64,000 nt of DNA from Fimbriimonas ginsengisoli Gsoil 348 (GTDB lineage Bacteria > Armatimonadota > Fimbriimonadia > Fimbriimonadales > Fimbriimonadaceae): the NCBI RefSeq assembly GCF_000724625.1, contig NZ_CP007139.1, positions 4,898,001-4,962,000 on the forward strand. The letters are read 5' to 3'. A program made the position numbers and the translations under genes. Positions 12,850 to 58,969 of this stretch are shown piece after piece. Numbering within the stretch: the first letter of the stretch is position 1; every line of letters starts with the position of its first letter. The notes beneath the pieces are model-generated. The model was not told where the DNA came from, made no database searches, and worked only from the letters and a program-made list of their open reading frames with translations.

Positions 12850-12908
12850 GAGCCTGGTGTACCGCAGGTACGCCAGATCATCGGCGAGGCGCCGACGCTA
12901 CGCGTTAG
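12850..12908. repeat. R1 repeat, short form
   Basis: This block has a small hairpin around TGGTGTACCGCAGGTACGCCA and then ATCATCGGCGAGGCGCCGACG followed by CTACGCGTTAGG. The same block returns at 34741-34792 and 55655-55702 with minor changes. It lies between the convergent nitrilase and carA genes and overlaps the carA stop. Confidence 0.75.
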
Positions 12909-14036: not shown

Positions 14037-14942
14037 TCACCCTCTCGGGTGAGAGCGATTGTATTTTTGGCGCACCTCGTCCAGGTCTAGCTGCGTGTAC
14101 ACCTGGGTGGTAGCCACGCTCTCGTGGCCGAGGAGCTCCTGCACAGCCCGCAGGTCGGCCCCCCCTTTGATGAGGTGAACCGCGTAGGTGTGGCGCAACG
14201 TGTGGGGACTTACGCCCACCAAACCGGCGAGTCGCGAGTAACGCTCCATCAGGTCGTAAGCGGTTTGGCGCAACATCGTCCGGCCCGTGTCGCTGATCAA
14301 AAACGTCCCCGTCGGCTTCTTCTGCAAGACTGGACGCGCTTCGTCGAGATACTTCCCGAGCCAATTGACGGTCCCCTCCGGGAGCGGCACCTGGCGGGTC
14401 TTTCCCCGCTTGCCGGTTACCCGCACCGTTCGCTCTTCGAGAGCCAGGTTCGAAAGCGACAATTCCACCGCCTCGGTGACGCGTAGCCCGGCCCCGTATA
14501 CCAGCTCCATCAACGCCCGATCTCTCAAGCCAGTCGGCTTTGTGAGGTCGGGGGTCTGCAGCAACGCCTCCATTTGCTCCCGGCTCAATGCCTTCGGCAG
14601 CGTCTTCGCCTTTCGAAAGCCTCCGGTAGAAGGGAGATCCACCGCCGGTCCCTGGTGATTTCGCTTCAGAAACTTTAGCAAAGAGCGGAGGGCGCTCAAT
14701 CGCCGTTGCGCGGTCGTCCGGGCGATCCCCGGACCTAGGCTCGCCTCGTACGCCACGAGGTCCACCGGGCCGAGCGCTTTCCAGTCGCGCAACCCACGCT
14801 TGGCAAAGAAATCGATCGCCTGGGAAAGATCGTTCTGATACGCGGCGATGGTGTGAGTACTTGCGCCCCGCTCCACCTTCATGTGGTCCAAGAACCACTC
14901 GAGGCTTTCGAGGAGCGCCGCCTTTCCCCCTTCCAAGCTCAC
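14037..14942 (-). CDS. XerC/XerD-type tyrosine recombinase
   Basis: The 301-residue protein has an N-terminal SAM-like core-binding domain (about 10-95) and a catalytic domain. It carries Arg in GAGLRVTE, the box II HTLRHTYAVH, LGHESVATTQ and the nucleophile Tyr in VYTQLDLDEVR. Length and motifs match chromosomal Xer recombinases that resolve dimers at dif. Co-transcription with carA and the absence of att-like repeats argue against a phage integrase. It starts with GTG, overlapping the upstream gene by four bases. XerC and XerD cannot be separated from sequence alone. Confidence 0.87.
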   Translation of the reverse strand: MSLEGGKAALLESLEWFLDHMKVERGASTHTIAAYQNDLSQAIDFFAKRGLRDWKALGPVDLVAYEASLGPGIARTTAQRRLSALRSLLKFLKRNHQGPAVDLPSTGGFRKAKTLPKALSREQMEALLQTPDLTKPTGLRDRALMELVYGAGLRVTEAVELSLSNLALEERTVRVTGKRGKTRQVPLPEGTVNWLGKYLDEARPVLQKKPTGTFLISDTGRTMLRQTAYDLMERYSRLAGLVGVSPHTLRHTYAVHLIKGGADLRAVQELLGHESVATTQVYTQLDLDEVRQKYNRSHPRG

Positions 14943-28381: not shown

Positions 28382-28523
28382 TTGGGGTGTTACGGTATTG
28401 CGGTGTTGGGGCCGGTCTCGTGTGGACTGTGGCTTGTGACGTGTGGACTGAGCGAAGCATGAGACCCAGATGTCCCATTCGACCCATCAAAGAAGGTAAA
28501 GCCTCACACTAAGAACACCGCAA
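28382..28523. repeat. R4 repeat copy
   Basis: The core GTGTGGACTGAG...GACCCAGATGTCCCATT...AAGGTAAAGCCTCACACTA at 28441-28511 recurs at 49571-49660 with the same order and small indels. The copy here is flanked by GGTGTTGCGGTGTT-like inverted arms (28383-28411 and 28513-28530). It lies between the 717-residue protein and the rhomboid gene. Confidence 0.7.
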
Positions 28524-28531
28524 CACCGCGC

Positions 28532-29452
28532 ATGTACCCCCAAAGCCGCCGAAGCAATCAAGATCTGCCGATCATGTCGGCGGCTTCGTGCGTCCTCTGC
28601 GGGATCATTTTCGTCGCCTTGAACGCGAATTCCTCGGGCGGCTGGGCGGCCACCGCGAGATGGGGCTTGCTGCCTGAATCCGCGATTTACAAAGGGGCTT
28701 ACTGGGCTCTCATTAGCTCGGCGTTCGTCCATGTGCAATTGCTGCACCTCTTGTTCAACCTCTCCTGGCTTTGGAGCCTCGGCGGGGCGTTGGAACGAAC
28801 GATTGGACCATGGCGCTGGCTCCTGTTCCTCCTCACATCCGCCTTTGTCTCCTCTGGGCTTCAACTCGCCCTGGGGGGTATGGGGATCGGGATGTCGGGG
28901 GTGATCTATGCCATGTTCGGCTTCGCATGGGCGACCCGTCGCCGCTTCCCGGAAATGGCGATGATGGCCACCAAGGGGAATGTCCAGATCTTTGTCGGCT
29001 GGGGTGTGCTGTGCATATTCCTCACCTACACGCATCTGATGAATATCGGCAACGGCGCTCACTTCGGCGGCCTCCTATTCGGCCTCGCCGTCGGGGCGCT
29101 GGTCGACCATCCCAAGCTTCGAATCCCTGCCTCGCTTGGCTTGGTCGTTCTAACCGCCGGCGCCATCGTACCGCTCTACTGGAACCCGCTTTCGCCGCTA
29201 TGGGCGGCTTGGAAGGCAGACGGAGCGTTTCAGCGGAACGACGTTCCCGAAGCGATCCGCTTCACCCGGATGTACTTGGATCGAGGAGGCGACGACCAAG
29301 AGTGGGCCTGGAGGAATCTCGCCATCGTTTACGCCCACCAAAAAGACAGAGCACATTTTCAGGAGGCGATCGACCATCTAAAAGCGGTAAATCGTAACGA
29401 AGCCGAGTCCCTCGCCGGAGACTACGACGCTCTAGGTGCTTCCAGCCCATAG
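28532..29452 (+). CDS. Rhomboid-family intramembrane serine protease with TPR-like tail
   Basis: The 306-residue protein has six transmembrane helices. The catalytic Ser is in GIGMSGVIYAMFG (GxSG) and the catalytic His is in NGAHFGGLLFGL, so the enzyme looks active. Rhomboids cleave transmembrane helices of client proteins within the membrane. After about residue 225 a soluble segment (GAFQRNDVPEAIRFTRMYLD, NLAIVYAHQKDRAHFQEAID) looks like two tetratricopeptide helices and could select clients. The last residues and the stop derive from an R2-like module. The client is unknown. Confidence 0.88.
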   Translation: MYPQSRRSNQDLPIMSAASCVLCGIIFVALNANSSGGWAATARWGLLPESAIYKGAYWALISSAFVHVQLLHLLFNLSWLWSLGGALERTIGPWRWLLFLLTSAFVSSGLQLALGGMGIGMSGVIYAMFGFAWATRRRFPEMAMMATKGNVQIFVGWGVLCIFLTYTHLMNIGNGAHFGGLLFGLAVGALVDHPKLRIPASLGLVVLTAGAIVPLYWNPLSPLWAAWKADGAFQRNDVPEAIRFTRMYLDRGGDDQEWAWRNLAIVYAHQKDRAHFQEAIDHLKAVNRNEAESLAGDYDALGASSP

Positions 29453-34698: not shown

Positions 34699-34792
34699 CT
34701 ACGTCCGAAGGACGTGTAGCCGTGGGTTCCGTGCCCACGCCTGGCGTACCAAAGGTACGTCAGGATCATCGGCGAGGGCGCCGACGCTACTA
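34699..34792. repeat. R1 repeat, variant form
   Basis: ACGTCCGAAGGACGTGTAGC starts the element, then a GTGGG...CCCAC hairpin, then TGGCGTACCAAAGGTACGTC and ATCATCGGCGAGGGCGCCGA. The second half matches 12850-12908 and 55655-55702. It abuts the stop of the TPR gene. Confidence 0.75.
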
Positions 34793-44736: not shown

Positions 44737-45127
44737 TATAATCCTCACACCGTCTCCCCGGCGCCGGCGCGATAGCATTCCTTACCCTAAGGACATTTGC
44801 CTGGGTGCCCGTGTCGGGAAGATTGTCGTCCTACGTCCGAAGGACGTGTAGCCGGCACCTACGCGTGCCGCCCTTATGCCGAGGTCATCGCAGCCGAGCG
44901 GTCAACGATGCCTCCAACCAGTCGGGGTCGATATACCGCAACGTGCGAAACCCTGGTGACGGTGAAATACCCATCCGCTCCCATGCGCCGACCGCGGCAC
45001 GCGTCGGTGCCGGCTACACGGCTTCGCCGTAATCGGAAGAGACCCACGCATCCGAACTCAACTGGCGACCTAATCCGCCAACGAACCCCAACTCTCCTGT
45101 TGACCATAATGCCACCAGTCTCCAGAG
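44737..45127. other. Gene-free stretch with an R1 fragment
   Basis: No gene is visible. CTACGTCCGAAGGACGTGTA with GCCGGCACCTACGCGTGCCG at about 44830-44870 is the left end of an R1 element. The rest holds scattered repeat remnants and no coding pattern. Confidence 0.5.
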
Positions 45128-46489: not shown

Positions 46490-46885
46490 GGTTTCTTCAC
46501 TTCTCCTGGTGGATTCAGAATCACGGCCGTTACTCAAAGGTTTCGCGGACTCGCTTCATCTTCCTGCCTTCATGAGTTGGTCGATTGGGGCAACCGAGAA
46601 TCGACAATTGCCGAAGCAGACTCTTACGAAATCCGGAAGTCTGTTGCTTGGCTCGAACCGCCGATCCAAAACCCAACATGCAACCCACCCTAAAGTAAAG
46701 GATTTACGCCGAAGGCGTGTAGCCGCAGGTTGGCTCGTACCTACGCGAGAGCGTGTCTCTTTGCAACGAAACTTGTGGATCGTTGGGGACGCAGGTACGA
46801 GCCAACCTGCGGCTCGCTTCGCGTTATCTTTCCGCCACCGCCAATCCAAAAACCGATCCTTCGCGCCGCACTAACGCGAAGCGAG
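46490..46885. repeat. Gene-free stretch with a full R1 element
   Basis: No gene is visible. A complete R1 copy at about 46704-46826 has perfect 22-base inverted arms: AGCCGCAGGTTGGCTCGTAC and two further bases at 46721-46742, with the inverse at 46793-46814. It ends CGCTTCGCGTTA. The 50-base centre contains CAACGAAACTTGTGGATCGT. A second CTAACGCGAAGCGAGCTATG unit lies at 46872, next to the YCII stop. Confidence 0.75.
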
Positions 46886-49570: not shown

Positions 49571-49660
49571 GTGTGGACTGAGGGGACGAATGGGTCAGAT
49601 GGGACACATGAGACCTAGAAGACCCGGATGTCCCATTAAACAAGGTAAAGCCTCACACTA
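49571..49660. repeat. R4 repeat copy
   Basis: GTGTGGACTGAG, GACCCGGATGTCCCATT and AAGGTAAAGCCTCACACTA appear in the same order as at 28441-28511. This copy lies between the ECF42 gene and the third YCII gene and has an additional block GGGTCAGATGGGACACATGA. Confidence 0.65.
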
Positions 49661-49668
49661 GCAACGCC

Positions 49669-50028
49669 TCAGCTCCGTCCCGCTACCTCCACCACCGGAA
49701 TCTCTCTCAACGGGCGGACCTCGACGGTGCCGAACTCCGCGACCGGATGCTGGCTGGCGATCTCGAGCGCCTCATCGAGGTCCTTCGCTTCGATGAGCAT
49801 GTAGCCGGCCAGTTGCTCGCGCGTCTCCGCGAACGGGCCGTCGGTCACGAGGCGGCGGCCTTGTCGTACTCGGAGGCTGGTGGCGGTGGGGGTCGGCTGG
49901 AGGATGCCGCCGGCGATCCAGTGCCCGCTGGCCCCCAGCCTCTCCGCCAAGCCTCCGCATTTCTTAGCCCCTGCCTCGTCCATCTGGGGCGCTTGCTCGT
50001 CGAGATAAATCAGCAACATGTAGTTCAT
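49669..50028 (-). CDS. YCII/DGPF-domain protein 3
   Basis: The 119-residue protein begins MNYMLLIYLDEQAPQMDEAG and has the signature LVTDGPFAETREQLAGYMLI. It is the third DGPF protein around the ECF42 gene and closest to paralogue 1 in sequence. ATG at 50028 was chosen; the longer open frame lacks similarity. It lies upstream of ECF42 on the same strand, so it may be co-transcribed with it unless the R4 repeat terminates. Confidence 0.85.
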   Translation of the reverse strand: MNYMLLIYLDEQAPQMDEAGAKKCGGLAERLGASGHWIAGGILQPTPTATSLRVRQGRRLVTDGPFAETREQLAGYMLIEAKDLDEALEIASQHPVAEFGTVEVRPLREIPVVEVAGRS

Positions 50029-55398: not shown

Positions 55399-55526
55399 TC
55401 GTCCGAAGGACGTGTAGCCGCAGGTTGGCTCGTACCTGCGCGAAAGCCACCAACGATGCTCATGTTTGGTCAAATGACGAAACACCTCCACGCAGGTACG
55501 AACCAACCTACAACGCTCCGCGTTAG
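55399..55526. repeat. R1 repeat, full form
   Basis: The left arm TTCGTCCGAAGGACGTGTAG, then CCGCAGGTTGGCTCGTACCT, leads to a centre with GTTTGGTCAAATGACGAAAC. The right arm is CGCAGGTACGAACCAACCTA, ending CGCTCCGCGTTAG. It matches 46704-46826, 55703-55832 and 58840-58969 along its whole length. Confidence 0.85.
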
Positions 55527-55612
55527 ATCCTGGAATGCTCCGCTAGAGGGTTGGAAGGCTTACTGCCAGACCGCTACCGATCTCGATGATCGCCCAGCGA
55601 CAAGTTTCCCGA

Positions 55613-55832
55613 CATCCCAAGGACGTGTAGCCGCGGATTCTATGCCCGCGTCCGGTGTACCGAAGGTACACCGGATCATCGGCGAGGACGCCGACGCTGC
55701 GGCCGAAGGACGTGTAGCCGCAGGTTGGCTCGTACCTGCGGATAGGCCCCGAGGATCGGCAAGTTTAGTCAAGAGGCGAAACGCTCTCGCGCAGGTACGA
55801 ACCAACCTGCGGCTACAACGCTTCGCGTTAGG
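55613..55832. repeat. Two R1 repeats in tandem
   Basis: A variant (55613-55702) starts AAGGACGTGTAGCCGCGG and carries the GTACCGAAGGTACACC hairpin and the ATCATCGGCGAGGACGCCGA block. A full form (55703-55832) with inverted arms CCGCAGGTTGGCTCGTACCT and AGGTACGAACCAACCTGCGG follows directly. With 55399-55526, the 499 bases between apt and miaA are mostly R1. No gene is visible. Confidence 0.85.
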
Positions 55833-58833: not shown

Positions 58834-58969
58834 CTACGGTGAAGCCGTGTAGACGCAGGTTGGCTCGTACCTGCGCGATAATGCCCCAACGATCCACCCG
58901 CTTCGTCAGAAATCGGTAGGCTCTCGCGCAGGTACGAGCCAACCTACATCTACAATGCTCTGCGTTAGA
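58834..58969. repeat. R1 repeat, full form
   Basis: The left part TACGGTGAAGCCGTGTAGAC and the arm GCAGGTTGGCTCGTACCTGC precede a centre with GTCAGAAATCGGTAGGCTCT. The right arm CGCAGGTACGAGCCAACCTA and TGCTCTGCGTTAGAA complete it. It lies in the upstream region of the APH-like gene. Confidence 0.8.

Follow-up and report, generated by a model that had tools for sequence, protein, structure and literature searches.

Inverted doublets of REP palindromes, or REPINs, have been described in Pseudomonas fluorescens SBW25, where, in the available text of Bertels and Rainey 2011 (PMC3116915), they number in the hundreds, lie outside genes, have conserved ends and a less conserved spacer, and are tied to RAYT genes. 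The survey of GTAG REP families by Di Nocera 2013 describes, in the portions accessible to us, REPs with a GTAG foot and stems of 6-13 bp, head-to-head dimers mostly 20-100 bp apart and, in S. maltophilia, hybrid dimers (PMC3733652). The same portions mention REP dimers nested in other palindromes (A. variabilis, H. neapolitanus), REPs in small palindromes (T. roseum) and, around two Pseudomonas RAYTs, "double inverted repeats" that consist of a degenerate GTAG-1 unit and an unrelated stem-loop and occur in hundreds of copies (PMC3733652). As for the proteins, the excerpts at hand state that TnpAREP enzymes cut at C|T and that GTAG helps to choose the cleavage site in one system (PMC8266576), and that subclass 2.5, or RAYT group 3, carries the signature DH[LF]H, WQ, YI[VI]ANP and is found mostly in Xanthomonad and Pseudomonad species (PMC6006769). 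REPINs, hybrid dimers, REPs in palindromes and joints of REP and stem-loop by two Pseudomonas RAYTs are therefore already in print, as far as these texts go (PMC3116915, PMC3733652, PMC6006769).

We analysed a window of 64,000 nucleotides (positions 4,898,001-4,962,000) in the single-contig genome (5,231,762 bases) of Fimbriimonas ginsengisoli Gsoil 348. The G+C content of the window is 61.0%; the accessible part of the genome description gives 60.8% for the published chromosome and counts no more than 12 transposase genes, stating that known IS elements are lacking (PMC4072686). The window contains a repeated element, R1, which belongs to the known REPIN class. With the SBW25 doublets it shares the inverted REPs, the conserved ends, the extragenic location, the less conserved spacer and the tie to RAYT genes, and with the GTAG families the GTAG foot, the range of stem lengths, the head-to-head spacing and the occurrence of hybrid dimers. 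R1 differs from the SBW25 REPINs in a further hairpin outside the GTAG, of a kind that the available text of PMC3116915 does not describe for SBW25 and that is rarely seen in such repeats, and in numbering about 40 doublets accompanied by broken RAYTs. It is also unlike the joined stem-loops described in the accessible portions of PMC3733652, since here the stem-loop sits directly against a GTAG that is intact, its sequence changes are compensatory, and it is found ahead of several REP families within a single genome. Armatimonadota are not named in those portions, and our search of the open-access literature found no report of REPINs or RAYTs in Fimbriimonas or any Armatimonad. Very probably, R1 is a non-autonomous doublet of two inverted, GTAG-tagged REP palindromes that was spread in trans by a RAYT, a single-strand transposase of the Y1/HuH type.

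Read from the outside inwards, R1 consists of CT, a small hairpin (hp1), GTAG, a palindromic arm (REP-a, CGCAGGT..ACCTGCG), a centre of mostly 49-51 bases, the inverted arm, CTAC, a second hp1 and AG (Table 1). hp1 has a stem of 5-6 bp and mostly a GAA loop, so that GTAG sits between hp1 and the REP hairpin (hp2). The first-pass annotation had described a common order of start, long arm, centre of about 50 bases, inverse arm and end for the full copies; the near-complete elements of the window show small hairpin, GTAG, long arm, centre, inverse arm and second small hairpin in this order. The same annotation had counted at least seven copies at eight places; near-complete elements stand at four of them, 46704, 55399, 55703 and 58834 (46706-46826, 55399-55526, 55699-55831 and 58836-58968), whereas the other four are mosaics that share one or more modules with R1. 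The mosaics at 34699 and 55613 combine the small hairpin, degenerate at 55613, with a REP other than that of R1 (the CCGCGGGTTCCGTGCCCGCG type), a GGTGTACC hairpin and a REP of a third kind, and the one at 44830 joins a small hairpin to a fourth REP type. A second repeat pair in the window (28458-28542 and 49607-49691; 85 bases, 74% identity) is unrelated to R1.

Table 1. Coordinates of R1 elements, their parts and related mosaics in the window
Feature	Position	Strand
hp1 (A type), small hairpin abutting GTAG, with CT before it	55399..55413	+
GTAG tag and left REP-a arm, first R1 copy	55414..55440	+
Centre of first R1 copy, about 50 bases, the most diverged inner part	55441..55490	+
Right REP-a arm (6 bases deleted) and CTAC, first R1 copy	55491..55511	-
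hp1 (B type) AACGC..GCGTT and terminal AG (CT on the opposite strand)	55512..55526	-
R2 mosaic piece: degenerate hp1, GTAG, REP-c, GGTGTACC..GGTACACC hairpin, inverted REP-b	55613..55700	+
Second R1 copy: hp1 (A), GTAG, REP-a, centre, inverted REP-a, CTAC, hp1 (B), AG	55699..55831	+
R1 copy, core inverted relative to its own outer hairpins	46706..46826	+
R1 copy, hp1 of ACGGT/GCCGT type	58836..58968	+
R2 mosaic: hp1 (A), GTAG, REP-c, middle hairpin, inverted REP-b	34701..34790	+
hp1 (A), GTAG, REP-d single unit	44833..44871	+
R2 mosaic, right half only: middle hairpin and inverted REP-b	12856..12908	+

That the repeats are not random debris, as had been supposed from the window, is confirmed. 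BLAST comparison of copies with the window gave E-values as low as 6e-29 between R1 copies, two copies folded as DNA lie 5.8 and 6.8 standard deviations below shuffled sequences (z -5.8 and -6.8), and the arm CGCAGGTTGGCTCGTACCTGCG, allowing up to 3 mismatches, occurs 126 times genome-wide (75 of the 126 free of mismatches) against 0 for a reversed-pattern control. A genome-wide search with a covariance model built from 26 R1 copies, which match it by construction, recovered the same four elements within the window and established that further copies exist. Among the 150 of 1549 first-look candidates that were scored, 42 distinct places, counted by hand with the two strands merged, score 68 bits or more across the full model (E no worse than about 3e-15), and 58, counted likewise, reach E 0.01; among the weaker of these are hybrids and single arms. 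Inverted doublets with the GTAG outside number 36 by script in the sampled DNA of this genome, to which four window doublets were added by hand. When 85 genomes of the family were scanned with the same model, strong matches came from the Gsoil 348 genome only and weak ones from four others. The positions of the copies, judged by eye, display no clear replication-strand bias. A plasmid origin was considered and rejected, the segment 55397-55850 having no match in PLSDB.

The conservation of R1 is uneven. In an alignment of the 26 copies, which were selected via their arms and are thereby biased towards high arm identity, mean pairwise identity reaches 0.98 and 0.94 in the two arms and 0.94 in GTAG. 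It is 0.63 in the centre, 0.55 and 0.62 in the hp1 of the two ends, and falls to 0.33 and 0.26 in the flanks. The centre is thus homologous among copies yet less conserved than the arms, contrary to its earlier description as conserved. Compensating changes in the arms, which had also been suspected, are not borne out either: 16 of 22 arm pairs are invariant, a single cell has changes on both sides, and 274 of 500 shuffles attain at least that.

These data bear on whether R1 is a structured RNA element, such as a regulatory 3' UTR or a terminator-like hairpin, kept for its function in transcripts. The strong single-strand folding would suit such a role, as would the placement of the copies: all 40 are intergenic, overlapping predicted genes by no more than 14% in sampled DNA that is 80% coding according to a crude home-made codon-usage caller trained on 37 window ORFs, and convergent genes flank 12 of the 37 copies for which both neighbours could be assigned. 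Of the remainder, 19 lie between genes of one direction. Against such a role, 6 lie between divergent genes, no Rfam family matches within the window at the gathering threshold, covariation in the arm-arm helix and the centre hairpin does not exceed that of shuffles, one arm pair is non-standard in 7 of the 26 copies, and the consensus ends without a U-run. The folded RNA proposed in the first-pass annotation thus finds no support, and we consider this explanation quite unlikely; a secondary use of R1 in RNA is possible. The REPIN alternative offered at the same time fares better: the copies are numerous, intergenic doublets of inverted, GTAG-tagged REPs, and in related bacteria RAYT genes are flanked by REPs, several of which follow the R1 template.

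The cluster at 55399-55832 sits in a gap of 499 bases between two genes that we take, from their protein sequences, to be apt and miaA. Among 19 loci in relatives, 15 have both genes, with gaps of 2-428 bases: four have 2, 11, 20 and 30 bases and eight have 392-428. Since eight of the 15 have gaps of the latter size, reading the cluster as an insertion leans on the tight relatives.

Outside the GTAG, the sequence of hp1 varies while its pairing is kept. In sampled DNA of this genome, the hairpin abutting GTAG is fully paired (Watson-Crick or G.T) in 71 of 97 arms, with 12 stem types, among them AACGC/GCGTT, ACGGC/GCCGT, ACGTCC/GGACGT, ACATCC/GGATGT and ACAACC/GGTTGT. Stems of 5 bp are paired in 55 of 66 cases, against a mean of 26 after the 3' halves had been re-dealt, and those of 6 bp in 16 of 31, against 10.4. 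When each distinct pair is counted once, 8 of 18 are paired in the 5-bp class (shuffle mean 1.7, highest 7) and 4 of 17 in the 6-bp class (mean 1.6, highest 6); because the contrast shrinks over distinct pairs, the 6-bp class is indecisive by itself. A perfect hp1 precedes 64 of 149 GTAG-REPs of this genome, a fraction raised by the fact that the sample was largely recruited via R1, as compared with 34 of 1490 shifted positions. In the loci sampled from other genomes the corresponding figures are 3 of 131 and 9 of 1310. As hp1 is almost absent there, it is mainly a feature of this genome and its role is not general. Within the genome, hp1 precedes REP-a, REP-c and REP-d but not REP-b, whose single case has an unrelated hairpin.

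The hp1 could be classed in 78 of the 97 arms. At these ends, T directly precedes the hairpin in 75 and CT in 52, which is compatible with cutting at C|T. Ends of the A and C types mostly read CCCT, whereas those of the B type have little further similarity. The broken GGTGTACC hairpin of the R2 mosaic abuts the B end in 8 of 41 cases and A/C ends in 1 of 37, and another palindrome family abuts 7 of 37 A/C ends.

The two ends of R1 also differ systematically from one another. Both could be classed in 32 of the 36 scripted doublets, the four with an unclassified end being set aside; in 28 of the 32 an A/C-type end is combined with a B-type end, the rest being B/B (3) or A/A (1). The core follows no such rule: in the 28 A/C-B doublets it is oriented one way in 18, the other way in 8 and indeterminately in 2. 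The hand-labelled copy at 46706 is inverted, and its core is 95.5% identical to the oppositely oriented core of the copy at 1109716. On a tree of the cores, which is weak and in which 7 of 34 rows lack an orientation label, the 9 inverted copies need 7 changes, against a mean of 7.8 for shuffled labels, and the well supported branches force only 2. Double-hairpin ends, a fixed polarity and a core that lies either way are unusual features of R1. The core orientation is most simply accounted for by inversion between the inverted arms, the alternative being independent assembly of A and B units.

That alternative can be put more broadly: R1 doublets may have arisen by the joining, at C|T, of A-type and B-type double-hairpin REP units rather than by copying of whole doublets, which would be compatible with RAYT action on single units. 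The regular pairing of A/C-type with B-type ends, the preference of the broken R2 hairpin for B ends and the presence of the A hairpin before REP-c and REP-d all speak for such joining. The centres, on the other hand, are homologous well above the 26-33% background, which indicates at least shared descent of most doublets, and we hold this account to be rather unlikely. A tentative possibility, less likely than not, is that the double-hairpin end is a distinct recognition module in which hp1 loops out to set the C|T cut site against the GTAG guide, that this end is swapped between the REP families of one genome, and that the core inverts repeatedly while the ends keep their A-to-B polarity.

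Whether the genome holds a candidate enzyme was addressed with Y1_Tnp, which has 13 matches, and with a profile of six RAYTs from two relatives that was run against the Gsoil 348 genome. RAYT homologues of the clade are present, but they are damaged. One (L041) is 157 aa long and has lost its N-terminal part; it scores 86.1 against the NCBIfam REP_Tyr_transpos cut-off of 80. Another (L036) is divided over two reading frames. At 4206144 there is a piece of at most 75 residues whose HuH motif is broken to H-M-R, and a fragment lies at 2936183. A further locus (L042) gave one weak match to a RAYT of another type. R1-type sequence is found beside L041, as a decayed R1, and beside the piece at 4206144. 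REP-b, with 92 copies, has its own RAYT (L037), which is open and flanked by inverted REP-b. Because the clade RAYTs of this genome are broken, R1 has probably lost its mobility, unless another RAYT acts on it. All 34 cores differ from one another, with 73-96% identity between nearest neighbours, so there is no sign of recent copying. That the arms are nevertheless so alike would mean either that the loss was recent, or that another RAYT serves the arms, or that something else keeps their likeness.

An association between the clade RAYTs and GTAG-REPs is seen in relatives. The profile yielded 26 matches at E 4e-40 or better, from which 18 clade loci, in relatives plus L041, were tested: a matching inverted GTAG-REP pair lies within 700 bases at 8 of the 18, against 0 of 16 IS200-type controls, and 10 of the 18 are without a matching pair under this strict test. 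Several REPs beside the relatives' RAYTs have the R1 plan with other stem bases (GTAGCCGCCGGATGGTTCGTACCGGCG, GTAGCCGGAGGTGGTTCGTGCCTCCG and GTAGCCGCCGGATGTTTCGTGCCGGCG; examples in genomes G020 and G019). A stem template with two free positions per side, matched against GTDB species genomes, gave 40 matches in 33 stretches. By our reading, both free positions form Watson-Crick or G.T pairs in 38 of the matches, all of them from MAGs of Fimbriimonadaceae, Armatimonadetes or Chthonomonas or from the one labelled SJ84. Between species, the stem of the REP thus varies in a compensatory manner. The 2 matches in an Actinomycetes and a Chloroflexi MAG were dismissed as likely chance, their free stem positions being unpaired. 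For one clade member, TnpArep (4er8) was the only PDB match at E 0.1. The clade member L140 reads DHFH, WQ, YIAANP, which fits the signature of subclass 2.5 or group 3, placed mostly in Xanthomonads and Pseudomonads by the accessible text of PMC6006769; most other clade RAYTs read DHLH, WQ, Y[IV]FxNP, with L133 lacking the WQ and L041 reading DHVH.

The flanking REPs also weigh on another possibility, in which R1 would have nothing to do with RAYTs and would be the MITE of an ordinary DNA transposon bounded by terminal inverted repeats. Inverted arms, a length of about 130 bases and a high copy number are what such an element would have. Each arm, however, is itself a GTAG-tagged palindrome with relatives that flank RAYT genes, and no obvious autonomous partner is left by the 12 transposase genes and the lack of known IS elements in the available genome description (PMC4072686). 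On these grounds, and with our own search for transposases directed at the Y1 type, we consider a MITE very unlikely. A third reading, that R1 is an integron attC site or cassette boundary, meets still greater difficulty. Its length and GTTAG end are reminiscent of attC sites; the copies are scattered in both orientations rather than arranged in cassette arrays, and no integron integrase in the genome passes the curated cut-off (best match 80 bits against 265), so that we consider an attC site exceedingly improbable. An ORF at 14091-14888 of the window has weak similarity to tyrosine recombinases of the integron/Xer type, below the integron cut-off.

For R1 as a REPIN, the published TnpAREP mechanism suggests how movement might proceed. 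On single-stranded DNA, a RAYT would bind the GTAG foot together with the REP hairpin, cut at the C|T next to the unit and then move or copy the doublet elsewhere. We propose that in R1 hp1 would fold away, such that the C|T cut site comes to stand beside its GTAG guide. An extra hairpin whose pairing is kept would then offer a simple explanation of how REP elements might position their cut site, a question left partly open in the accessible published work (PMC8266576). More generally, REPINs and their RAYT partners are now seen in a phylum for which our search of the open-access literature found no printed report, in a genome described as lacking known IS elements, and the broken RAYTs suggest a REPIN family that is losing, or has already lost, its transposase.

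The comparison also brought up several arrangements of REPs and transposase genes. In genome G020 (L141, G020:C7:9045-9299), a RAYT gene neighbours five REPs arranged head to tail at intervals of about 88 bases, together with one REP in inverse orientation. At four loci of G019 (L107, L109, L113 and L116), REP doublets lie within longer outer inverted repeats of the GGCACGCCTTAATGTCAAACAGTTTTGG type, as would a REPIN inside a TIR element. In the Gsoil 348 genome, a RAYT-like gene at 2235782 (L038) is open in frame inside a longer ORF and has inverted repeats at its edges; the ORF on both sides presumably encodes an alcohol dehydrogenase-like protein. Two IS200-type transposase genes of the same genome (L033 and L035) are nearly identical, possibly through recent transposition. 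Finally, a contig of the SJ84 MAG (L211, JADZEW010000008.1) and a Fimbriimonadaceae contig (L209, JANJUB010000169.1) share 88.5% identity along 2.8 kb and 89% along 3.4 kb and have a REP doublet at the same place; the label of the former, Methanoregulaceae archaeon SJ84, looks wrong.
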